From Truepera radiovictrix DSM 17093 (GTDB lineage Bacteria > Deinococcota > Deinococci > Deinococcales > Trueperaceae): DNA of 64,000 nt. The stretch spans positions 997,001 through 1,061,000 of the forward strand of contig NC_014221.1 of the NCBI RefSeq assembly GCF_000092425.1, in the 5' to 3' direction. A program made the position numbers and the translations under genes. Below are positions 5,040 to 17,127 of this stretch, one piece after another; the first letter of the stretch is position 1, and each line of letters starts with the position of its first letter. Under the pieces are notes generated by a model that ran no database searches, had not been told where the DNA came from, and worked only from the letters and a program-made list of their open reading frames with translations.

Positions 5040-5456
5040 TTAGATGAATAGCTCGACCTTGACCCCGAAGCGCTCAGCCAACTTTTTGGCGAGTGCCTTG
5101 CTGATGCCACGCTCACCCTTGAGAATCCGGCTCAAGGTGCCCTGATTGACCACGCCCTCCTTGTCGAGCTGGTATTGAGTAACACCGTGCTCGCGCATGA
5201 GGATAGCCAGCATTTCCTGAGGGGTCGCCACAAGGTTCTTCAGCTCCGGCTCATGCGCCAGCTCCCAATCGTGCATGTACGTGGCGATGAGATCAAAAAG
5301 CGAGCCGTAGGGTTCAACATTGCAGTTGTAGCGGTTGGTGAGATCGTTGAGCAGCTCGCGCAGCGTTTCGTAATCGGCCTCAGTCTCGGGGCGCTTGATC
5401 CCCCCCGTGGCGGCCTGAAAAGCTTCCCAGGCGCTCACGACGGTTGCAGTGGTCAT
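5040..5456 (-). CDS. higA: HigA-type antitoxin, XRE-family HTH
   Basis: Antitoxin of a HigBA toxin-antitoxin pair, 138 residues, which in the family binds the toxin and represses its own promoter. The C-terminal half is an XRE helix-turn-helix (EHGVTQYQLDKEGVVNQGTLSRILKGERGIS); the N-terminal half is the alpha-helical part usual in MqsA/HigA-like antitoxins. ATG at 5456 is chosen because a GGGAGG site precedes it on the minus strand and it overlaps the toxin stop as ATGA, which implies translational coupling. It lies in the tRNA-Pro island. The gene itself looks intact. Confidence 0.85.
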   Translation of the reverse strand: MTTATVVSAWEAFQAATGGIKRPETEADYETLRELLNDLTNRYNCNVEPYGSLFDLIATYMHDWELAHEPELKNLVATPQEMLAILMREHGVTQYQLDKEGVVNQGTLSRILKGERGISKALAKKLAERFGVKVELFI

Positions 5457-5753
5457 ACGGGCCTCCCTTGGGCATTCCACCGGTCGTATTCGGCGTGCGT
5501 CATCACGCGCTTGATGAAGATGGTTTGGGCGCTGTAGCGCACGAAGGTGATGAGACGGTACTTGTTGCCGCTAATGTTGAAGATGGTGAGCTCGTCACTA
5601 GCAATGTAGTCAGCGGCACGCCATACGGCGCGTAGCTCGGAAAAGTTCGCGTAGCTGGCACTCTGAACGGCCTTCAACCACTCCCGCAGCGGCGCCTCGG
5701 CGTGTGGATGACGCTCCCAGAAGGTGCGCAGGGTGCGGGGGCAATGACGTTCA
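5453..5753 (-). pseudogene. higB: HigB-type toxin, frameshifted near the start
   Basis: mRNA-interferase of the HigB family. From 5743 downwards one frame reads ...RTLRTFWERHPHAEAPLREW... to ...FNISGNKYRLITFVRY... and ends THAEYDRW, matching the family layout closely. The ATG at 5753 begins MNVIA, the expected family start, but is one base out of frame: the run of five C (minus strand, 5737-5741) would need six. In the toxin frame there is no ATG, GTG or TTG between the upstream stop (5786-5788) and 5680; the first usable codon is the TTG at 5677, which would drop about 25 residues. Either the toxin is dead, the run slips during expression, or the base is a sequence error. Confidence 0.65.
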
Positions 5754-7111: not shown

Positions 7112-8551
7112 TCACGAACAGTACTGACTGAGAGCGTCTTCCAAAGGCACGTTGAGCTTCGGGAGCGGCGTGCTGACCGGCGGGTCGGTGTCGAAGAAGG
7201 CTAGCGGCGAGGTGAGCGCGCCGGGTGGGCGGGCGCAGCGTGGCGGGGCGTGCGCGTAGTCGAGCGCCGCGAAGACGCTGAGGGCGGGCGCGGCGAACGA
7301 GGTTCCCGCGACGCTGATCTGCGGGTAGGGGCGCCAGGTGTTGCTGGCCGGGTCGAAGGCGCTCAGCGCGTAGAACCCCCCCGGTAAGAGCACCTCGCCG
7401 GTGTTCGAGTATGACGCATCTTTGACGGCGGTAGGCGCTGAGACCGCCTGCGCGCTCACGCTGACGAACTCGGGCCAGTAGCCGGGGTAGAGCGCGTAGT
7501 CGAGCCGGTAATTGCCCGCCGCCGTGAGGTAGGTGACCTCACCCCCGCCCACAAGCTGCTCCCCGCTCCGCTTGACCAGCGTCACAAAGGGGTCGCTGCC
7601 GACCGGGGTGGTGAGGAGGCTGGTGAGGGCGTCCCTGAACGTGTTGGCGTCGAGACCGTTGGCGCTCAAGACCTCCTCCTGGTACGCCTCGAGCGTCGGC
7701 AGACGGTCACGGCTGGCGTTAAAGTCCTCTAGCACACTGCACGGCACCAGCCCGAAACTCAAGTTCACCGCGAAGTGCCGCGCACCTCGCACCAGTCGCA
7801 GGTGCTGCAAGGTGGCGGCGACCCGACCCACAATGACCTGCGTATCGAAGTCCTCGGTGTCGACCGCTGCCACGGTGAGGCCCAGGTCCCGAAAGTCGGC
7901 CAAGATGAGGTCGAAGGGCTCGAGCCCAAAGGGCGCTACCGGCACGTCGAGGCGCACCCGGTCGAACGCCATGTCGAAACCGAGCGGGCGGAGCAGGGCC
8001 AGGGTGTGGTTGAAGACCAGGGCGCCGTGCGAGAGCTGACCGCCGGCCTCGAGGGCGGCTAGCTCGAGCGTCTGTTGCTTGGCCCTAGTCGTCAGGTCGG
8101 GGGAGAGACGCGCCGGGAGGTTGGCGAGCGTGTCGCCCGGTCTTTGGTCTAAAAAGTAGACGCCGGGTTCCCGCACGCCCACGCCGTTGAAATCGTCCAC
8201 GACGAGTATGGCGACGGGTCCGGTGAAGGGTGCCGAGGCAAGCTTAGCGAGCTGGTTGCCAGTCGTGAGGGGGTCGCCGGGGGTGGTGCCGAGGGGGTAG
8301 GGGGAGACGGCGAGGCCGCCGATAGTTCCTTGAACATAAGCGCCTTCACCAGGAATCTTCAGTTCGTTGATAGGACAGTTACCCGCGCGTTCGTCAATCA
8401 GTCTGACGCGTTCAATTTTATTTAGCGGTTGCAGGTTTGGCTCATCTAAACTTTGGGTAGGGCGCAGACCGCTTCCGCCAGTTGGAGGTGGAGGATCCCA
8501 GCGACAAGAGACCAACGCGACGAGTAACGCGAGCCATAGCAACCGCTTCAT
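7112..8551 (-). CDS. Divergent subtilase (S8) lipoprotein
   Basis: Probable extracytoplasmic serine protease, 479 residues. The lipobox LVSC puts the lipidated Cys at 16. Subtilase motifs appear in order: Asp in VAILVVDD (D119), His in SHGALVF (H175), the oxyanion Asn in LTAAGN (N347) and the nucleophile Ser in AGTSFAAP (S418). Spacing is larger than in subtilisin and the first two motifs are poor matches, so this is a distant member; activity is inferred. No propeptide is obvious. ATG at 8551 follows AGGAGGAAGG. It is divergent from the 47-aa exported peptide gene. Confidence 0.8.
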   Translation of the reverse strand: MKRLLWLALLVALVSCRWDPPPPTGGSGLRPTQSLDEPNLQPLNKIERVRLIDERAGNCPINELKIPGEGAYVQGTIGGLAVSPYPLGTTPGDPLTTGNQLAKLASAPFTGPVAILVVDDFNGVGVREPGVYFLDQRPGDTLANLPARLSPDLTTRAKQQTLELAALEAGGQLSHGALVFNHTLALLRPLGFDMAFDRVRLDVPVAPFGLEPFDLILADFRDLGLTVAAVDTEDFDTQVIVGRVAATLQHLRLVRGARHFAVNLSFGLVPCSVLEDFNASRDRLPTLEAYQEEVLSANGLDANTFRDALTSLLTTPVGSDPFVTLVKRSGEQLVGGGEVTYLTAAGNYRLDYALYPGYWPEFVSVSAQAVSAPTAVKDASYSNTGEVLLPGGFYALSAFDPASNTWRPYPQISVAGTSFAAPALSVFAALDYAHAPPRCARPPGALTSPLAFFDTDPPVSTPLPKLNVPLEDALSQYCS

Positions 8552-8787
8552 ACGCCTTCCTCCTGCGCTGTCCCCGTTAAAGCTTCACTCTACTCCTTAT
8601 GCGTCAACTCGGCGTGAACTCCATTGTTCCAAGGTTTGAAAAATACGAAGTTGGAGCTAGAGGGTAGTCATTGTGCTATAGTCTGCGGCGGTAAACAACT
8701 CGTCTTGTGCCAAATCACGCCCCGCTCTGTTTGCCGAGAGGTAAAAGCTTTGCAGCTTTGTGTAGTACCAAAAAGGAGGCTGGCACG

Positions 8788-8931
8788 ATGAAATCAACCG
8801 CTAAAGCATTGGTGTTCGTCACGTTACTGGGACTCTTGGGAACCGCTTTCGCCGGGTCGCGTGTTCAAGGTACTTCTGTTCAACCAAGCTCAGGCGTAAC
8901 GGTGAACGGCTTGCGCGTGCAAGGTGGCTGA
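8788..8931 (+). CDS. Small exported peptide, 47 aa, with RVQG repeat
   Basis: AAGGAGG lies 8 bases before the ATG. Residues 1-22 form a clear signal peptide ending TAFA, leaving a mature peptide of about 25 residues. RVQG occurs at residues 25-28 and 43-46, with SVQPSSG and TVNG between. There is no cysteine. The -10-like TATAGT at 8677-8682 lies about 100 bases upstream. Its stop is 19 bases from the stop of the convergent regulator gene and it is divergent from the subtilase. The short V/L-Q-G and V-N-G spacing recalls small beta-helix-type repeats, but I do not recognise a family. A signalling peptide is possible. Confidence 0.7.
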   Translation: MKSTAKALVFVTLLGLLGTAFAGSRVQGTSVQPSSGVTVNGLRVQGG

Positions 8932-8950
8932 GGACGGCACCTCTCAGCAC

Positions 8951-11533
8951 CTAGCTTGACGTAAGCTCCATTAGCTCGAGGCTTCCTAGCATCTTTTGAA
9001 CTTGCTGAATTCTTGCTTGTACATCGTTGGCTTCGTAGAGTGCTAGAGCCTCGAGTAGGTAACTTCGCGCTTCTACAGAGCGCTGTTCGTCGCTATACAT
9101 CTCGCCTAGCTCTTGGAGGGCGTGAGCTTGCCAGAGTTGGTTTTGACGTGTGTTGGCAATTTGCAATGCTTCAAGTCTGAGTGCGACTGCCTCCTCAAAA
9201 CTACCAAGCTTTCGCTTAGCTTCACCGAGGTTGAGAAGTGCAGAGAAAAGGTTGTAGTCCACACGTGATTGGTCAATGTGACGCACTTGGTGTAAGGAGC
9301 GTGCTACTTGAAGCGCTTCCTGATTGAAGCGTTCCATCGCTTTCCAATCCTGACTGGTCCAAGCGACATACCCACGATGTTGTAAAACTTGACCTAATGC
9401 AAGTCCATCGTTCGCTTGCTCAGCAAGTTGATAGGCGCGTTCAAATGCCACATCTGAAGGTTGTCCTAAATAGTGATGTGCTATGCCGCAGATGCTGGTA
9501 AGAATTGCTTCTCTAGAAGGATTTCGGATAAGCCGCGCTAGCCTCGCGCCCTCCTGATATGCCTCCAGCGCCTTCTCAAACTGGTGGTACTGCTCGCGGT
9601 GCGCGTCTCCTAAACGGCCCGCTAGGTGGTGGGCGCGCTCGAGCTGCCCCAACTCCTTCGCCCAACTCACGGCCACCTCCAAGAGCTTGAGCGAGCGCGG
9701 CGAGTGGCCGCGGGCGGAGAAGTAGGCGTCGCCCACGACGAGGTTGGCGGTCAGGTCGACCAAAGCGGCGCGGTAGCCCAGCGCGTAGGCGACCTCGAGC
9801 GCGCCGATGAGGTTGCCGATCTCGGCGTCTAAGAGCTCAAAGGCGCGCGCGTGCTCGGCGACGAAGCGGCTGCACGCGCGCACCACGGTTTGCGGGCGCA
9901 GCGCCCGGTTCTGCCGTGCGAAGCTATAGGAGAGGTCGTGCAGCGCGTAGCGCACGGTGTCGCTGCCGGGGCGGGCGACGCGTTCGGCGAGGGCTTGGGC
10001 GTGCAGCTCGGCGAGCGCCGCCTCGGCGGTCTCGGTGTCCCGGCGCAGGAGGTGGGCGAGCAGTTCGGGGGTGACGGAGCCGGAGGCGAGGGCGCCGACG
10101 GCCAAGAATGCCTCGTAGGCGTCGTCGGTGAGGCCCTCCAGGCTCGAGCTTAAGAGGGCGCTGATGCTCTCACTCTCGTCCCAGCTCCTCGGTGCGTGGA
10201 GCGTGTGGGGTGCGTTGGCGAGACGCGCTAGAAGCTGCGACACGCTGAGCTTTTGGAGCTGCGTCCCGGCGAGGCGGAGCGCGAAGGGGTGGTCGCCCAG
10301 GACGTGACAGATTTGGTCCGCTTCGGCCTCGGGCAGCGGCACACCGGCAACTTCTGTGAGGAGGGCGCGCGCGTCGGGGCGCGCCAGCACGCCGACCTCG
10401 AGCCGCTTGAAGCCCGCCACCCGGCCCCTCGAGGTCGAGAGGAGCGGCAGCGTCTCCGGCAGGAGCCCGCGCAGCGCGCGCACCGCGTCGCCGTTCCAGA
10501 CGTCGTCTACGACTAACAGCGAGACTCGTTCGCGCGCCAGCGCTGCACCTAGGGCGGACGCGCTGGGGTTCCCCTGGAGACCGAGCGCGCGCTGCAACGC
10601 GTCCACGAGTTCGGGGGCGTCGCTGCGGCCCGCCTGCAGCCAGAGCACCGGGCCGCTCTCCAACTGCACCGCAGCGAACTCGGCGGCCAGCGCCGTCTTG
10701 CCGACGCCGCCGAAGCCGTGCAGCAGCGTCGGCCCGGTGCGAACGGCGTCGCTGAGGCGTTCTAGCAGCTCGGCGCGTCCGACGAGCCCCGCCGCGCGCC
10801 CCGGTACGCGGTCGCCGGGGCGCAGCAGGGTGCCCTGCGCTCCGGCCCCGTCGGCGCCGAGGAGCTGCCCGCGCAGCTTGAGCGTCTCGGGCGCCGGTTC
10901 GCCGCCCACTTCGGCGAGCGCCGTCCGGAGGCGCTCGAAGGTGCTCCGCACCGCCTCGGGGTCGCCGCTCTCGTGCTCTAGACGCATGAGCAGGCGATAG
11001 CTGGCCTCGTCCAGGGGGTCGCGTGCTAGCAGGCGCTCGGCATAGGCTTTGGCCTGCGCGTACGCGCCCCGCTCGCGGTTCTCCTGGGCGGCGCCGCGCA
11101 GGGTCTCGCGCACGAGCTCGGAGGTCTCGCGGCGGCGCTCCTCGAGCCACTCCTCGAACGCCGCCGACGGGGCCAGGAGCCCGAGCGCAAAGGTCTCGCC
11201 GCGCGCGAGGTGGCTCAGCGCGTCGGCGAAGCGCCCCTCACGGCAGGCCCGCTCGAGCGCCGCCACGTCGGTCGCCACCGCCACCCCCACGAGGTCGCCG
11301 TCGCGCAGCCACCCCTCGGCCCCCGGCAGCCCCCGCAGCTTGTAGAGCGCGGTGCGCAAGTTCGCGCCCCGGCCCGGCCCCCAGAGGAGTTCGGTGAGGT
11401 CGGCGCGGGGGCAGGGACCCTCGAGCGCCACGTAGATGAGTAGCGCCAGCTGTTTGGGCTGCAGCACCACCTCTTGCCCCTGCCACCATAGCGCAGGAGC
11501 CCCCAGCAGCGTGAGCAGCGGCCCCGGTTGCAC
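8951..11533 (-). CDS. BTAD/SARP-type regulator with NB-ARC ATPase and TPR repeats
   Basis: AfsR/SARP-like transcription regulator of 860 residues. Order: DNA-binding winged helix and BTAD helices (1-230), NB-ARC-type ATPase with Walker A GFGGVGKT (273-280) and Walker B LLVVDDVW (339-346), then a long C-terminal TPR array. Such STAND proteins switch on ligand or partner binding. The start is set at GTG 11533 because a TAGACA-16-CATAAT promoter ends six bases before it, giving a leaderless mRNA, and the conserved domain begins at once. The AT-richer C-terminal third (8951-9600) differs in base use from the rest. It lies between an exported peptide and a lipoprotein gene. Confidence 0.85.
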   Translation of the reverse strand: MQPGPLLTLLGAPALWWQGQEVVLQPKQLALLIYVALEGPCPRADLTELLWGPGRGANLRTALYKLRGLPGAEGWLRDGDLVGVAVATDVAALERACREGRFADALSHLARGETFALGLLAPSAAFEEWLEERRRETSELVRETLRGAAQENRERGAYAQAKAYAERLLARDPLDEASYRLLMRLEHESGDPEAVRSTFERLRTALAEVGGEPAPETLKLRGQLLGADGAGAQGTLLRPGDRVPGRAAGLVGRAELLERLSDAVRTGPTLLHGFGGVGKTALAAEFAAVQLESGPVLWLQAGRSDAPELVDALQRALGLQGNPSASALGAALARERVSLLVVDDVWNGDAVRALRGLLPETLPLLSTSRGRVAGFKRLEVGVLARPDARALLTEVAGVPLPEAEADQICHVLGDHPFALRLAGTQLQKLSVSQLLARLANAPHTLHAPRSWDESESISALLSSSLEGLTDDAYEAFLAVGALASGSVTPELLAHLLRRDTETAEAALAELHAQALAERVARPGSDTVRYALHDLSYSFARQNRALRPQTVVRACSRFVAEHARAFELLDAEIGNLIGALEVAYALGYRAALVDLTANLVVGDAYFSARGHSPRSLKLLEVAVSWAKELGQLERAHHLAGRLGDAHREQYHQFEKALEAYQEGARLARLIRNPSREAILTSICGIAHHYLGQPSDVAFERAYQLAEQANDGLALGQVLQHRGYVAWTSQDWKAMERFNQEALQVARSLHQVRHIDQSRVDYNLFSALLNLGEAKRKLGSFEEAVALRLEALQIANTRQNQLWQAHALQELGEMYSDEQRSVEARSYLLEALALYEANDVQARIQQVQKMLGSLELMELTSS

Positions 11534-11539
11534 CCTTCC

Positions 11540-11567
11540 ATTATGAGCAAAACTTCCTCGATGTCTA
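11540..11567 (-). promoter_or_regulatory. Leaderless promoter of the BTAD regulator
   Basis: Minus strand: TAGACA (11567-11562), a 16-base spacer, CATAAT (11545-11540), then six bases to the GTG. Both boxes match consensus at five of six positions. Confidence 0.65.
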
Positions 11568-11750
11568 GCGAAGCGCTTAAAAACGCCTTTCGGCAAGGGG
11601 TTTTTAGGTCGTCTGAGGTGCGTTGATGCCGCGTTGACGCCCCCCGCGCACACTCAGCCTGCACGTGACAGCAGACGAAAGGAGGTCGTCAAACAGGTTT
11701 TGGGGGCTCAACCCTTAAGCGGCGCCCAGAGCGCCAGAAGGAGAAGGCAG

Positions 11751-13448
11751 ATGAACGCTCGAATAGGCTACAGGCAAAGAACGCTCGTCCCCCTCACGCT
11801 GCTGGCACTTGCTGCCTGCACGAACACCCCACCGACCGAGTTGGCGGCGCAGAACACCCGCGAACTGCCCGTCTTCGTCCTGCAAGACAGCGGCGTCGGC
11901 GCCGAGCAGGTGCAGCGGCTTTTGGAGGGCGTGGGCGTCACCGCGAAGATTAGCCAGGCCGACCCGTCGGCCCCCATCTCGTACCTCGACAAGGCGCGCT
12001 TTATGGCAGTGCCGAGCCGGACCGTCGCGCGGGGGACCTCGAAGGAGGGTGAGGGGCCCGTGATCCGGCAGGTGCTCGACTTGGAGGCGCTCAAGAGGCG
12101 GCGCCCGCTGCCCGCGCAGGACGCGCTCGGGCGGGCGTTGGAGGCGCTACGGGGTGCGGGGATGTTGCCGGACACCGTCTCCAAATACGTGCGCGCCGAA
12201 CCGCGCGCCGAGTACAGCACCTTCGAGGCCACCGACCGCAAGGGCAACGTGCTGGCGCGGGTGAACCTGGACACGCACGTGCTGTTCGACCTGCGCCTGT
12301 CGGTCGCCGACGGCGTGCGCCTCACGGGGCCGGGCGCCAAGGTCAAGCTGGTCTTCGGCCCCTCGGGTCGCGCCACGCAGCTCTACTACGGGCTCTACGG
12401 TCTGGAGGAGGCGGGCAGCGTCGCCGTGTTGGGGGCCCAAGACGCGCAGGAGGCGTGCGCGAAGGCGCTCTCGAGGGGCGCTCAGGTGAACCCCGAACGG
12501 GTCACGACCGAACTGCTCTACTACGTCCCCAACGCGCAGGGCAAGTTAGGCAGCGTCAAGGTGACGCCCTCGTACCTGTGCGAGAGCCGCGTGACGCTCG
12601 GGGACCGGACGCTGGACTCGAGGAGCGTGTTGATCGACGCGGCGACCGGCAAGCCGCGCTTTAACGCCCGCCCGGCGCCCGGACGGCCTGCGCCACAGAT
12701 CGCCCAGAACACCCCCTCGCAGAACACCCTCGAGCCGCAGCGCTTGGGCCGCGTGGACGCGGGCACCGAATACGTGGGCGTCTCGCAGGGGCTCGGCGGG
12801 TCGCAGGCGAACGCGGGCGGCTTTACGAACACCATGAACGCCCGGGGCGTGCCCGTGCAGTTTCACTGGGGCGACTTCAGCGCGTGGGAAAGCGACTTCA
12901 AGGACCCGAGCCGGGGTGGCAATGACCGCGCTTACGTGGACGACGTGGACATCACCTTTTACACCGGGCACGCCGACGGCAACGGCTTCACCTTCCCCGG
13001 CGCCAACGACGACGGCTTTTTGGAATACACCGACGCGGTGTGGGGCGAGCGCGACCTCGAGTGGCTGGTGATCGCGGCGTGCGGCCCCTTGCAAGAGACC
13101 GAGGGTGGGCTTTCCCACGTGCAGCGTTGGGGACCCGCCTTTAGAGGGCTGCACCAGATGCTCGCCTACGCCACCGTGAGCTTCGACAACACCTCCGAAG
13201 GGCGCATCCTGGCCGAAAACCTGCTCGGTATCCGCATCCTCTGGTTCGACCTAGGCGCCAAGATGGTCCGCCAAGCCTGGGTGGAGGCCGCCACGCAGAC
13301 CCAGCCCAGCAGCGTGACCTGGGCCATCATGGGTCCCTTCGGCCCCGGCTACACCCACAACTACAACGACTTCTTCTGGGGCAAGGGCAGCACGAGCGGC
13401 GACATCGGCAGCCCCATCGGGTTCTGGCGTGTGTCCGGTCCCTCGTAA
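11751..13448 (+). CDS. Lipoprotein with C-terminal His/Cys peptidase-like domain
   Basis: Exported lipoprotein of 565 residues; lipobox LALAAC near residue 23. AGAAGGAGAAGG precedes ATG 11751. The middle part has no clear homology. The last ~200 residues look like a DUF6345-type domain: FYTGHADG (H407) and LVIAACGP (C444) sit after hydrophobic strands as in caspase/gingipain-like (clan CD) cysteine peptidases, followed by a Trp-rich end. The peptidase idea rests on this pattern only. It is divergent from the BTAD regulator and 114 bases before an SBBP-repeat lipoprotein, so it may be regulated by the former and work with the latter. Confidence 0.65.
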   Translation: MNARIGYRQRTLVPLTLLALAACTNTPPTELAAQNTRELPVFVLQDSGVGAEQVQRLLEGVGVTAKISQADPSAPISYLDKARFMAVPSRTVARGTSKEGEGPVIRQVLDLEALKRRRPLPAQDALGRALEALRGAGMLPDTVSKYVRAEPRAEYSTFEATDRKGNVLARVNLDTHVLFDLRLSVADGVRLTGPGAKVKLVFGPSGRATQLYYGLYGLEEAGSVAVLGAQDAQEACAKALSRGAQVNPERVTTELLYYVPNAQGKLGSVKVTPSYLCESRVTLGDRTLDSRSVLIDAATGKPRFNARPAPGRPAPQIAQNTPSQNTLEPQRLGRVDAGTEYVGVSQGLGGSQANAGGFTNTMNARGVPVQFHWGDFSAWESDFKDPSRGGNDRAYVDDVDITFYTGHADGNGFTFPGANDDGFLEYTDAVWGERDLEWLVIAACGPLQETEGGLSHVQRWGPAFRGLHQMLAYATVSFDNTSEGRILAENLLGIRILWFDLGAKMVRQAWVEAATQTQPSSVTWAIMGPFGPGYTHNYNDFFWGKGSTSGDIGSPIGFWRVSGPS

Positions 13449-13562: not shown

Positions 13563-14828
13563 ATGCTCCGCAAATCCCTCTTACGCTTCTCCCTCCTCAC
13601 CCTCCTCGCCGCCTGCAGCCAGGCCCCGACCCTGGAGGCCGACGCGCCCCTCGAGCCCCTCACCCTCGGCACCACCGGCTTCGACGCCCTTAGGGGTCTG
13701 GCCCCCTACAGCTCCGGCGTCTACGCGGTCGGCGACACCGGCGGCGATCTGCACGGCGCGCCCAAGGGCAACGGCGACGTCTTTATCCGTAAAGTGGACC
13801 GCGAAGGGGCGGTGGTCTGGGGGCGGCAGTTCGGCACCCCCGAGTACGACACCGCCGAGGGCGTCGCCTCGGACGCTCTCGGCAACGCCTACGTCGCCGG
13901 GATGACCTACGGCAGCCTCGCCGGGTCGCGCGGCGCGAGCGACCTCTTCGTGCGCAAGTACAGCCCTTCCGGCGCGGTGGTCTGGACCCGTCAGTTCGGC
14001 ACGGGCGACTACGACTACGTCGGCGACATCGCCGTGTACGGCTCTAGCGTCTACGTGGTCGGCTTTACGCAAGGCAACCTCGCGGGCAGCCAGGGAGGCT
14101 GGGACGCGTTCATCCGCAAGTACACCGACTCGGGTTCGGTCGTCTGGACGAAGCAGTTCGGCACCGGCGCCGAGGACTTTGCCAAGGATGTCGCCGTGGA
14201 CGGCCTCGGCAACGTCTACGTGGTCGGCTACACCTACGGCACGCTCGCGGGCACGCACGGCGGCGACGCGGACATGTTCATCCGCAAATATAGCGCCTCC
14301 GGCGCCGTGCAGTGGACCCGCCAGCGCCACTACAACGACGAGGACACAGGCGTCGCGGTGGCGACGAGCGGAAGTCACGTCTACCTCGTCGGCGGCTACA
14401 ACAAGAGCAGCGACCCCTTCAACCCCGACCCCAACGTACGGGTGGTCAAGTTCAGCGCCTCGGGTAGTACCGTGTGGGACAAGGGCTACGGCCCGCCCGG
14501 TGTTGACTACGTCTACGACGTCTCGGCCGATCCCAAAGGCAACTTCTACCTGGCAGGGGAGACCTACACCTCGTTTAGCGGCGTCAACAAAGGTGGGGCC
14601 GACGGCTACGTGCGGCAGTACACCCCAGCGGGTAGCGTCGTCTGGTCGCGGCAGCTCGGCACCCCCGAATACGACGCGACCTACGCCGTGCTCGCGCGTA
14701 CAAGTTCAGAGCTCTACCTCGCTGGTACGACCTACGGTACATTGGGCAGCTCGTACAGCGGTAACGGCGACGCCTACTTGCGGCGCACGAACGCCGGAAC
14801 GGGTAGCACGGTTTGGACCGACCAGTAG
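13563..14828 (+). CDS. SBBP-repeat lipoprotein (beta-propeller type)
   Basis: Exported lipoprotein of 421 residues, lipobox LLAAC near residue 18. AAGGAGA precedes ATG 13563. From about residue 40 on it is a run of at least six repeats of about 55 residues with the pattern FIRKxxxxGxVVWxRQFGTxxYDxAxxVAxDxxGNxYVxGxT, the SBBP/beta-propeller repeat. These are usually surface or periplasmic with binding rather than catalytic roles. Same direction as the preceding lipoprotein; probably co-transcribed. Confidence 0.85.
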   Translation: MLRKSLLRFSLLTLLAACSQAPTLEADAPLEPLTLGTTGFDALRGLAPYSSGVYAVGDTGGDLHGAPKGNGDVFIRKVDREGAVVWGRQFGTPEYDTAEGVASDALGNAYVAGMTYGSLAGSRGASDLFVRKYSPSGAVVWTRQFGTGDYDYVGDIAVYGSSVYVVGFTQGNLAGSQGGWDAFIRKYTDSGSVVWTKQFGTGAEDFAKDVAVDGLGNVYVVGYTYGTLAGTHGGDADMFIRKYSASGAVQWTRQRHYNDEDTGVAVATSGSHVYLVGGYNKSSDPFNPDPNVRVVKFSASGSTVWDKGYGPPGVDYVYDVSADPKGNFYLAGETYTSFSGVNKGGADGYVRQYTPAGSVVWSRQLGTPEYDATYAVLARTSSELYLAGTTYGTLGSSYSGNGDAYLRRTNAGTGSTVWTDQ

Positions 14829-14895: not shown

Positions 14896-15097
14896 CAGAA
14901 GGTCATCTCGTAGACGCTGAGCCCCGCGCTGCTCGGTTCCACGAAGGTGATGGGGTGCCCTCTGGGAGGGAGCCTTGGGTGGCCGCCGCGCTCTCGAAGG
15001 TGGCGGTGACCTCCACCGGGCCGGTTAGTGAAGATCCAGTTGCAGTTGGCGCTCGCCCTTACCGTGCCCATCTTGTGCCCGTGGATGTCAGTGATGC
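14896..15097 (-). pseudogene. Decayed gene fragment, unknown
   Basis: The minus strand ends ITFVEPSSAGLSVYEMTF-stop and, upstream, reads DIHGHKMGTVRASANCNWIF. The segment between (EVTATFES in another frame) makes sense only with frame changes. No start is found. I read it as the 3' end of a lost exported protein gene next to an IS element. Family not recognised. Confidence 0.4.
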
Positions 15098-15275
15098 CTA
15101 AAACCCTCGACGAGGCCTATTGTGCGGAAGCGAGCGGCAACGCCAGCATAGAGAAGGCATTCATCCCTCCGCCACCTTGGCCTGCTTTGGTTAGGAGGCA
15201 GTGATGGGTTCGGGGGGCACCATTGACGCTTAAATTTCCAACCTCGGTCTCCCTGGTTCCGCTTTGTCCGGCATT
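15098..15275. other. Intergenic, nothing recognised
   Basis: No ORF with coding character between two gene remnants. Base composition is lower in GC than the genome norm. Confidence 0.3.
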
Positions 15276-15580
15276 TTAGAGGTTCGTCGCTTGGGCGATG
15301 ACATCACAGGAGGCGACCTCGGTACGTGGTCCTATGATCGTTGTGCTGAATGTTCCCGTTTGCCCTGCGCCTAGGTCAGTAGGGTCAGTATAGGTTGAGC
15401 CCGCGTCTGCAAGACGACCACTATCGTCGTAACACACGTAGACAGCTTGAGCAAATCGGCGTGTAACAGCGTCGTCGTTTACGACCCGTCCAATGAGCCT
15501 TTGCGCATAAGAGTCGTCTTGAAGCGTTGCTTGGATTACTTTCAAGCGCACGGCCTCTTCATTATTCCAAGCGTAAGGTT
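15276..15580 (-). pseudogene. FxLYD-domain protein gene, 5' end cut by IS insertion
   Basis: The open frame ends at 15276. The product reads VIQATLQDDSYAQRLIGRVVND... VYVCYDDSGRLADAGSTYTDPTDLGAGQTGTF, the layout of FxLYD domains (extracytoplasmic Ig-like modules). The frame continues upstream of the first possible start (GTG 15551) as YAWNNEEAV and runs into the IS left end at about 15580; no signal peptide or start remains. The missing 5' part is not evident beyond the right end of the IS either. Confidence 0.6.
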
Positions 15581-15587
15581 GAAACCA

Positions 15588-15601
15588 CCGCCTTTAGGCG
15601 G
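15588..15601 (+). repeat. Left-end hairpin of the IS element
   Basis: CCGCC-TTTA-GGCGG, subterminal to the left end, upstream of tnpA. Confidence 0.75.
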
Positions 15602-15628
15602 TCAGATTTCATCTGCTAGCCTTGGCGG

Positions 15629-16057
15629 ATGGAGTATCGCTATGGCAGCCATACCGTCTTCAACATCGAGTACCACTTTGTGTGGGTCACGAAGTACCGC
15701 TACAAGGTGCTGAAAGGGGACATAGCCGAGCGTGTTAGGGAGTTGGTGCGGCAAACCTGCGAGGCGTTCGAGATACGGATTCTGAGCGGAGTGGTGAGTA
15801 GCGACCACGTGCATATTCTGGTGAGTGCGCCGCCGACAATGGCGCCGAGTGAGATCATGCGGCGGATCAAAGGGCGAAGTGCGAGCAAGCTATTCGAGGA
15901 GTATCCGAAGCTAAAAGCACGTTATTGGGGGCGGCACTTTTGGGCTAGAGGGTACTTCTGTGCGACGGTGGGGCAAGTCACGGAAGAGATGATCAAGAGC
16001 TACCTGGAGCATCACTTCGAGCCGACCCGAGAGGACAACTTCAGGACAGAGGACTGA
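15629..16057 (+). CDS. tnpA: IS200/IS605 family transposase TnpA
   Basis: Y1 HUH single-strand transposase of 142 residues, the family's usual length. The HUH motif is HVHILVSAPP (about residues 61-70); the catalytic Tyr is in EEMIKSYLEHH near residue 125-130. The start YGSHTVFNIEYHFVWVTKYRYKVL is typical. The frame is intact, so it may be active. No strong ribosome site; ATG 15629 fits the family start. Confidence 0.95.
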   Translation: MEYRYGSHTVFNIEYHFVWVTKYRYKVLKGDIAERVRELVRQTCEAFEIRILSGVVSSDHVHILVSAPPTMAPSEIMRRIKGRSASKLFEEYPKLKARYWGRHFWARGYFCATVGQVTEEMIKSYLEHHFEPTREDNFRTED

Positions 16058-16104
16058 CGGGTCTATGACCCGTATCCCGACTTTCAGTCGCTCTTTCAAA
16101 CCCT

Positions 16105-16118
16105 CCGACTTTAGTCGG
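16105..16118 (+). repeat. Right-end hairpin of the IS element
   Basis: CCGAC-TTTA-GTCGG, with the same loop as the left-end hairpin. A similar but less perfect CGAC/GTCG pair lies just before it at 16078-16090. Confidence 0.75.
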
Positions 16119-16266
16119 TGGTTGTTTAGTTGCTGCCCCCTCCGTGCGCAAACCGTAAGTCGTCGCTTTAATAAGGCAAGTTTGCTTGTTCAAGCGTATA
16201 AGAGGGATAAACACTTACGCAATCAAAAATCTAACGTTATAGACACAATTGACGGCTTGCCGGATC

Positions 16267-16689
16267 TCACACAAAAGGCGACCGCACCACCGTATCACCG
16301 TAGTATTGTCCGGCGTTTAGGTCCTCTGACCACAGCGTGCTGGCGCCTAGCTCGAGCGCGCTATTTAGAACCATCGCGTCCCAAAAGGAAAGTTGGTGTG
16401 CTGCCTGCAAATCGATAGCGGCGAGCACCGACGCGCTTGTTGGGGCGTGGACCACCCAGAGGCTGTAATCTTCGACCGCCTGCCGCGCTGTTGGGACGTC
16501 TAGAGGTTTGGAGAGCTTACGCGTCGCGTTGACGTAAAACTCTTGCAGCACCTGCACGCTTAAGCAACCGCTACGCGCCTCCCAGAGTCGGGAAAGCAGC
16601 GCCGCGGCGCGCGCCTGCTTCTCCGGCTCGCTGTGATCTACCGCGTAGAGCAGAATGTTAGTGTCTACGAACTCGGGGCTAACGCTCAT
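16267..16689 (-). CDS. VapC-type PIN-domain toxin
   Basis: Probable tRNA- or rRNA-cleaving ribonuclease toxin, 140 residues. PIN acidic residues: D in FVDTNILLY, E in LQEFYVNATRK, D in SFWDAMVLNSAL and D in LWSEDLNAGQ. ATG 16689 lies inside the 3' end of the antitoxin gene (11-base overlap), typical of vapBC. The gene is intact. It sits next to an IS element and decayed genes in an AT-richer patch. Confidence 0.9.
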   Translation of the reverse strand: MSVSPEFVDTNILLYAVDHSEPEKQARAAALLSRLWEARSGCLSVQVLQEFYVNATRKLSKPLDVPTARQAVEDYSLWVVHAPTSASVLAAIDLQAAHQLSFWDAMVLNSALELGASTLWSEDLNAGQYYGDTVVRSPFV

Positions 16690-16921
16690 GCAGCGTTTCG
16701 CGTGAGGCGAACGCTTCGCCCTCATGGCGCAGCTTTCTCCCGGAGCGCATCAAGGCTTGCTGCCGCTCCCAAGCGGCGTTATAGGCTTCGTTTCCGCTGG
16801 TGATGCGGGTTAGGCTCTCGATGACCAAAGCCGTCATGCTGGTGCCGCGCTCCGCCGCAACCTGCTTAGCCTTCTTCAGCAGCGCTTTGGGGATGCGAAG
16901 AGTTACGTTCTGGGTTTCCAT
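16679..16921 (-). CDS. VapB-type antitoxin, ribbon-helix-helix
   Basis: Antitoxin of 80 residues for the overlapping PIN toxin. The start METQNVTLRIPKALLKKAKQVAAERGTSMTALV is a ribbon-helix-helix DNA-binding region; the tail (HEGEAFASRETLHER) would bind the toxin. ATG 16921 is chosen because a TACAAT box ends five bases upstream, so the mRNA is probably leaderless. Autoregulation is likely at the palindrome 16940-16959. Confidence 0.85.
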   Translation of the reverse strand: METQNVTLRIPKALLKKAKQVAAERGTSMTALVIESLTRITSGNEAYNAAWERQQALMRSGRKLRHEGEAFASRETLHER

Positions 16922-16926
16922 GCTTG

Positions 16927-16959
16927 ATTGTAGCACGTATTGCACGTCACTATGTGCAA
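16927..16959 (-). promoter_or_regulatory. vapBC promoter and palindromic operator
   Basis: TACAAT as -10 on the minus strand (16932-16927), five bases before the ATG. Upstream is TTGCAC-8 bases-GTGCAA (16940-16945 and 16954-16959), a fitting operator for a dimeric RHH antitoxin; a further GCACGT copy lies at 16933-16938. Confidence 0.55.
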
Positions 16960-17127
16960 AGATTGCGATAAGAGAGGGCTGACTGGTTGAATTTAAGGTT
17001 AGAGGGTGCTTGAGGGTAGTGCATGCGCCGTGGGGTCGGGTTGTCGGAGGACGGTGCAGGAAGAGCGATCTTTTCACGGTTAGCCAATAGCACGTATCAT
17101 GACTACAGGCCAGATAAGCTGATTCAC

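Follow-up and report, generated by a model that had tools for sequence, protein, structure and literature searches.

We analysed a 64,000-nt stretch of the genome of the radiation-resistant bacterium Truepera radiovictrix DSM 17093 (NC_014221.1, positions 997,001 to 1,061,000; hereafter the window), in which the gene for a large BTAD-NB-ARC-TPR regulator neighbours that for an exported subtilase lipoprotein. The two proteins may well constitute a peptide-signalling pair, made up of a STAND-TPR receptor and a ligand-bearing protease; release, import and binding of the ligand we infer. In the mechanism that we propose, the exported subtilase would free seven-residue peptides (heptads) from itself, by self-cleavage or in trans, and in T. 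radiovictrix heptads would also be freed from a 47-aa exported peptide encoded between the two genes. The freed heptads would re-enter the cytosol and bind the TPR domain of the regulator; this would flip the NB-ARC switch, and the BTAD domain would then activate the regulator's own operon and perhaps a divergent gene for a DUF6345 lipoprotein. In homologues, this sensor would instead have a DUF4062 domain, a cyclase or a Ser/Thr kinase as its output.

Recurrent pairing and exchange of the output domain

Each window protein was used as a query against the order (111 genomes), and loci from Chloroflexota were added. In many contigs, a subtilase homologue is immediately preceded, in the same orientation, by a full-length homologue of the regulator. 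Because the first set of loci had been chosen partly by the regulator, the fair pairing count is that of loci picked by the subtilase alone: in 30 of 35 such loci, from Trueperaceae, a Thermus/Meiothermus-group genome and Chloroflexota, a STAND/AAA-TPR gene lies within 400 bp. A hand count of all usable loci including the window, several of whose Chloroflexota members are close relatives, gave 46 of 51 paired within this distance, 38 of them with the partner upstream on the same strand. None of 16 motif-less S8 subtilases taken as controls, about half of them with only ~1.3 kb of flank, had a STAND/AAA-TPR neighbour.

The switch-plus-TPR core and the subtilase are constant across loci, and the output domain is exchanged. 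BTAD-NB-ARC-TPR proteins stand beside the subtilase in Trueperaceae, one Thermus/Meiothermus-group genome and two Chloroflexota loci, DUF4062-NB-ARC-TPR proteins in Anaerolineae, Pkinase-AAA-TPR proteins in others and Guanylate_cyc-AAA-TPR proteins in another Trueperaceae group. Kinase and cyclase outputs beside the same protease would be predicted by a relation of sensor to ligand, not by one of regulator to target. Adjacency of a regulator and its target is common, the 47-aa peptide lacks homologues, and the regulator might merely activate the neighbouring subtilase gene, with the heptads and the 47-aa open reading frame (ORF) incidental; we consider this very improbable, as none of the kinase, cyclase and DUF4062 partners is a known DNA-binding output. 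As a second alternative, the pair could serve in conflict or defence, with a STAND sensor that has variable effectors joined to an exported protease effector. Peptidases and AP-ATPase-TPR proteins whose N-terminal domains are swapped are a typical feature of the conflict systems in PMC7159879, and the distribution of the pair is patchy (9 of 396 Anaerolineae genomes). PADLOC, however, returned only generic matches (TPR, kinase, cyclase; TPR alone for the window pair) and no specific family, BTAD outputs with operators of their own point to transcription control, and the protease is exported and has four invariant cysteines, unlike cytosolic effectors. A defence role is thus improbable.

In the window regulator, an AAA/NB-ARC switch is combined with a TPR superhelix at the C-terminus. 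Its Pfam matches are to BTAD (3.5e-8), NB-ARC (5e-4), TPR_12 (1.3e-8) and other TPR families; the NB-ARC domain has the Walker A motif GFGGVGKT, and homologues favour a start near 11533 over the listed 11653. The subtilase has a signal with the lipobox LLVALVSC and all catalytic residues, D (VVDDF), H (SHG), N (AAGN) and S (GTSFAAP). Its match to Pfam Peptidase_S8 is below threshold (19.6 versus 21.8 bits), but the S8 fold is settled by the family profile and by an AlphaFold2 (AF2) model with a pTM of 0.83, built like our other models on a shallow alignment of 10-14 sequences; the best matches by profile and Foldseek were Tk-subtilisin, BPN' and PatA/PatG. D62, H118, N290 and S361 are invariant in our alignment of subtilase homologues (A1), together with the four cysteines.

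The first-pass annotation had proposed a candidate signalling module of four genes on alternating strands with short gaps. All four ORFs are real, their strands alternate as claimed and the intergenic gaps measure 236, 19 and 217 bp. When we asked whether the genes stay together in relatives, the regulator and the subtilase did, and the peptide and DUF6345 genes did not: DUF6345 is found in seven further genomes of the order, in none of them close to a regulator or subtilase gene, on which ground we rejected a conserved four-gene module, and the peptide is an orphan. The conserved core is therefore the regulator and the subtilase only.

Two side observations concern the pair. At locus L235 (7607-9679), a subtilase with two copies of GVRAMGS has no receptor, which may have been displaced, given the transposase ORF immediately upstream. 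In a Trueperaceae sub-group (L090, L091, L096-L098, L236-L238) a third gene near the pair encodes a short BTAD-like protein of ~290 aa, and the subtilases carry glycine-rich 9-residue repeats (GGNPRMDGG, GGAGRLVGD).

Heptads in the subtilases and in the 47-aa peptide

Members of the subtilase family share an N-terminal cysteine motif ending in GQ, then a seven-residue stretch and then the catalytic domain. In many homologues the stretch is repeated in tandem, in 2-5 copies: AMRINGS (twice), PYRVVGA (three times), LYLSGST (twice), GLNAVGA and GLQAVGA (two or three times each), GVRAMGS (twice), and GFSVTGL and GFSVSGL (five times each). The sequence varies between loci, and copies within one subtilase are identical in protein. 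The proportion of synonymous differences between copies (pS) is 0.69, near saturation, and that of nonsynonymous differences (pN) is 0.01, a value biased low, unlike pS, by the selection of exact repeats. Because the protein sequence is identical while synonymous changes are many, the copies must be old and each under strong selection; recent slippage as their source was rejected on the near saturation of synonymous sites. Such selection is not accounted for if the heptads are incidental to simple activation of the subtilase gene. Paralogous subtilases with GFSVTGL and GFSVSGL occur within the same Chloroflexota genomes (G121, G123, G232 and G365), with the T/S difference at one residue in all five copies. 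The five-copy segment has no structure in AF2 (predicted local distance difference test score, pLDDT, ~20), and a beta-solenoid is not supported by this model from a shallow alignment, in which secondary structure is absent. Two loci have tandem subtilase genes: L087 (1391-6011) has two heptad subtilases (GLNAVGA in two and three copies) behind one receptor, and L226 has another pair (RFTLSGLG, two copies) without a STAND neighbour.

The 47-aa peptide, MKSTAKALVFVTLLGLLGTAFA|GSRVQGTSVQPSSGVTVNGLRVQGG, has a clean type I signal peptide with cleavage at AFA|G, which gives a predicted mature form of 25 aa, GSRVQGTSVQPSSGVTVNGLRVQGG; a perfect Shine-Dalgarno sequence, AAAGGAGG, stands 8 nt ahead of its ATG. 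It contains the heptads GSRVQGT and GVTVNGL and an overlapping GLRVQGG, and VQGT is common to the peptide and to the subtilase heptad GAYVQGT. Shuffled sequences reached its heptad count at a rate of 0.1% under a strict and 0.005% under a loose motif (P 1e-3 to 5e-5); this is moderate evidence, because the peptide itself was partly in view when the motif was defined. No sigma-70 promoters or terminators were found around the peptide gene, and small ORFs at other loci showed only chance-like 4-mers of the local subtilase motif. In addition to this small peptide, the subtilase itself bears a candidate ligand.

The strongest rival explanation, which we nevertheless hold to be unlikely, is that the heptads form an autoprocessing or autoinhibitory segment of the subtilase, serving as cleavage or substrate-mimic sites, and that the STAND-TPR protein senses something else, such as envelope stress, and sets the level or activity of the protease. 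The heptad lies just ahead of the catalytic domain and after a conserved cysteine, N-terminal segments of subtilases, when disordered, commonly undergo processing, and a match to the enzyme's own specificity would also keep the copies identical. This explanation leaves three things unaccounted for: unrelated output domains that keep the same TPR and subtilase pairing, the motif shared by the 47-aa peptide, and a compositional block that includes the TPR end and the heptad but not the catalytic domain.

A low-GC block spanning the sensor end and the heptad

This block runs from within the regulator gene, across the peptide gene, into the subtilase gene (Table 1). GC content at third codon positions (GC3) is 0.90 in the regulator up to codon 664 (support 655-669, 0 of 200 permutations), within the TPR domain, and 0.42 beyond it; in the subtilase it is 0.46 up to codon 76 (support 75-79), which encodes the final heptad residue, and 0.86 thereafter. 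The BTAD, NB-ARC and subtilase catalytic domains, outside the block, keep native composition. Ten other regulator/subtilase pairs have no comparable pattern, and a GC dip as a general trait of these genes was rejected on that basis. With breakpoints within the TPR domain and at the last codon of the heptad, the block covers the regulator's sensor end together with the peptide and the heptad. Judging from composition, we propose that it fits a receptor-ligand specificity cassette in which sensor end and ligand were replaced together; it is akin to the specificity blocks known from agr and comQXP. Were the regulator a simple activator of the subtilase gene, the block would be due to chance or general gene transfer, which accords with the further low-GC tracts in the window, but not with breakpoints inside two ORFs at these positions.

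Table 1. Features of the locus; positions count from the first nucleotide of the window
Feature	Position	Strand	Basis or remark
Exported subtilase lipoprotein (S8 fold), 479 aa	7112..8551	-	lipobox, catalytic residues, family profile, AF2/Foldseek
Heptad GAYVQGT, subtilase residues 70-76, single copy; site of 2-5 tandem heptads in homologues	8324..8344	-	predicted disordered, pLDDT <50
Low-GC block: TPR C-terminus, peptide gene and subtilase N-terminus to heptad end	8321..9540		GC 0.51 versus 0.69 around
47-aa exported peptide with two or three heptad motifs	8788..8931	+	ORF, Shine-Dalgarno sequence, AFA/G signal peptide
BTAD-NB-ARC-TPR (large SARP/AfsR-like, STAND) regulator, candidate receptor, 860 aa	8951..11533	-	Pfam and full-length homologues adjoining subtilases
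C-terminal TPR part of regulator (residues ~664-860), foreign-looking composition	8951..9541	-	GC3 drop
Predicted SARP-type operator: direct repeat GCGTTGATGCC GCGTTGACGCC, 11-bp period	11620..11641	+	in regulator/DUF6345 intergenic region
DUF6345 lipoprotein, divergent from regulator	11751..13448	+	Pfam DUF6345, 259 bits

Several observations weigh against a signalling pair. Five loci have no partner within 400 bp, and several adjacent kinase partners are convergent or divergent and hence not co-operonic. Many members (the window, L079, L081 and L089) have a single heptad and the DUF4062 class has a non-heptad motif, so heptad repetition is dispensable. No homologue of the 47-aa peptide was found at a meaningful E value in the 111 related genomes, and no donor of the low-GC block was found. 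To these points are added the limits given above on pN, on the peptide's motif enrichment and on the AF2 alignments. Taken with the evidence for it, the TPR regulator/exported subtilase core of the peptide circuit put forward in the first-pass annotation is strongly suggested by the two-phylum pairing, the output swapping, the heptads, the shared motif and the composition block; its extent over four genes is not.

We tentatively advance a broader possibility, that the pair represents a new class of peptide signalling outside Bacillota: an anchored or secreted protease would bear a multi-copy pheromone that it releases, a STAND-type TPR receptor would sense it and could feed into transcription, phosphorylation, cyclic-nucleotide or DUF4062 outputs, and sensor end and ligand would spread between lineages as one cassette. 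If this is true, peptide communication through cytosolic TPR receptors extends to Deinococcota and Chloroflexota. STAND-TPR regulators (AfsR-like, DUF4062-NB-ARC, kinase-TPR, cyclase-TPR) abound in bacteria, and few of them have a known ligand; the exported, repeat-bearing partner offers candidates open to direct synthesis and testing, and the mosaic in the window would be a natural swap experiment for receptor-ligand specificity.

Operator region, known systems and neighbouring genes

The predicted operator of the regulator follows the pattern NCGTT(N6), with direct repeats 11 bp apart that also occur upstream of BTAD regulators at seven other loci (L080, L081, L082, L088, L089, L219 and L224); SARP operators are known as direct repeats with 11-bp spacing (PMC4393881). 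It is the sole unmismatched site in the 3,260,398-bp single-contig genome, so the direct regulon looks local, and we found no second operator above control level elsewhere in the genome. Between operator and regulator start, at 11578-11606, lies a near-perfect hairpin (TAAAAACGCCTT/AAGGGGTTTTTA), which might serve as an attenuator or terminator within the leader of the regulator. The shared operator region is the only tie of the DUF6345 gene to the pair, and this gene is possibly a local target of the regulator, not a conserved partner. Its product had been described as a His/Cys peptidase-like lipoprotein. An invariant histidine after a hydrophobic strand (FYTGH) and an invariant cysteine after another (AACGPL/IAACGPL) do occur in seven homologues (L036-L042 compared with the window), in a spacing reminiscent of clan CD (caspase/gingipain) peptidases, and the description is fair for what is a putative peptidase.

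Among known systems, the RRNPPA families of Bacillota (Rap-Phr, PlcR-PapR, NprR, AimR) have genes for pheromones exported by Sec and signal peptidase I or II routes (Sec/SPI or SPII) directly downstream of cytosolic TPR receptors (PMC9765709), and some Phr-type precursors hold 1-4 identical or similar pheromone copies (PMC11343458, PMC5199041). The pair described here likewise has, in most loci, a C-terminal-TPR protein with an exported product, the subtilase lipoprotein, immediately downstream, which would act as precursor. It differs in that the receptor is a STAND/AAA-TPR protein with swappable outputs, the candidate ligand lies in the N-terminus of a dedicated subtilase, and the hosts are Deinococcota and Chloroflexota. 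The window regulator gave no Pfam match to RRNPPA receptor families at E 0.1 and has BTAD and NB-ARC in place of an HTH joined directly to TPR; the pair is not a member of RRNPPA by sequence, architecture or lineage, although it would work in a similar way. FxSxx-COOH systems (PMC7159879) also link AP-ATPase/NB-ARC proteins with C-terminal TPRs to a peptide and a peptidase, and the regulator matches NF040586 (FxSxx_TPR) over NB-ARC with 81.8 bits, below the NCBIfam equivalog cut-off of 300. The locus, however, has no FxSxx motif, zincin peptidase or radical SAM gene; the peptide ends in RVQGG, the scanned neighbours encode the subtilase, DUF6345 and an SBBP propeller, and the motif is on the exported subtilase. 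Large SARP/AfsR regulators share the BTAD, NB-ARC and TPR architecture and the 11-bp-spaced direct-repeat operators (PMC4393881), but here the regulator is coupled to a heptad subtilase, and its sensor core is also found with outputs of the kinase, cyclase and DUF4062 kinds. With subtilisins such as Tk-subtilisin and PatA/PatG the subtilase shares fold and catalytic residues, but not the N-terminal Cys-heptad segment with tandem repeats, the four conserved cysteines or the pairing with a STAND-TPR gene. We found no description of the STAND-TPR/heptad-subtilase pairing in the open-access literature.

Beyond the DUF6345 gene, the next gene (13563-14828, plus strand) encodes an exported SBBP beta-propeller lipoprotein (Pfam 1e-25). 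An ORF at 15629-16057 (plus strand; MEYRYGSHTVFNIEYHFVWVTKYRYKVL...) resembles an IS200/IS605-type Y1 transposase and lies in a low-GC tract at ~15000-17000. Two small ORFs at 5040-5677 (minus strand), HigB/HigA toxin-antitoxin-like by eye, lie in a third low-GC tract.

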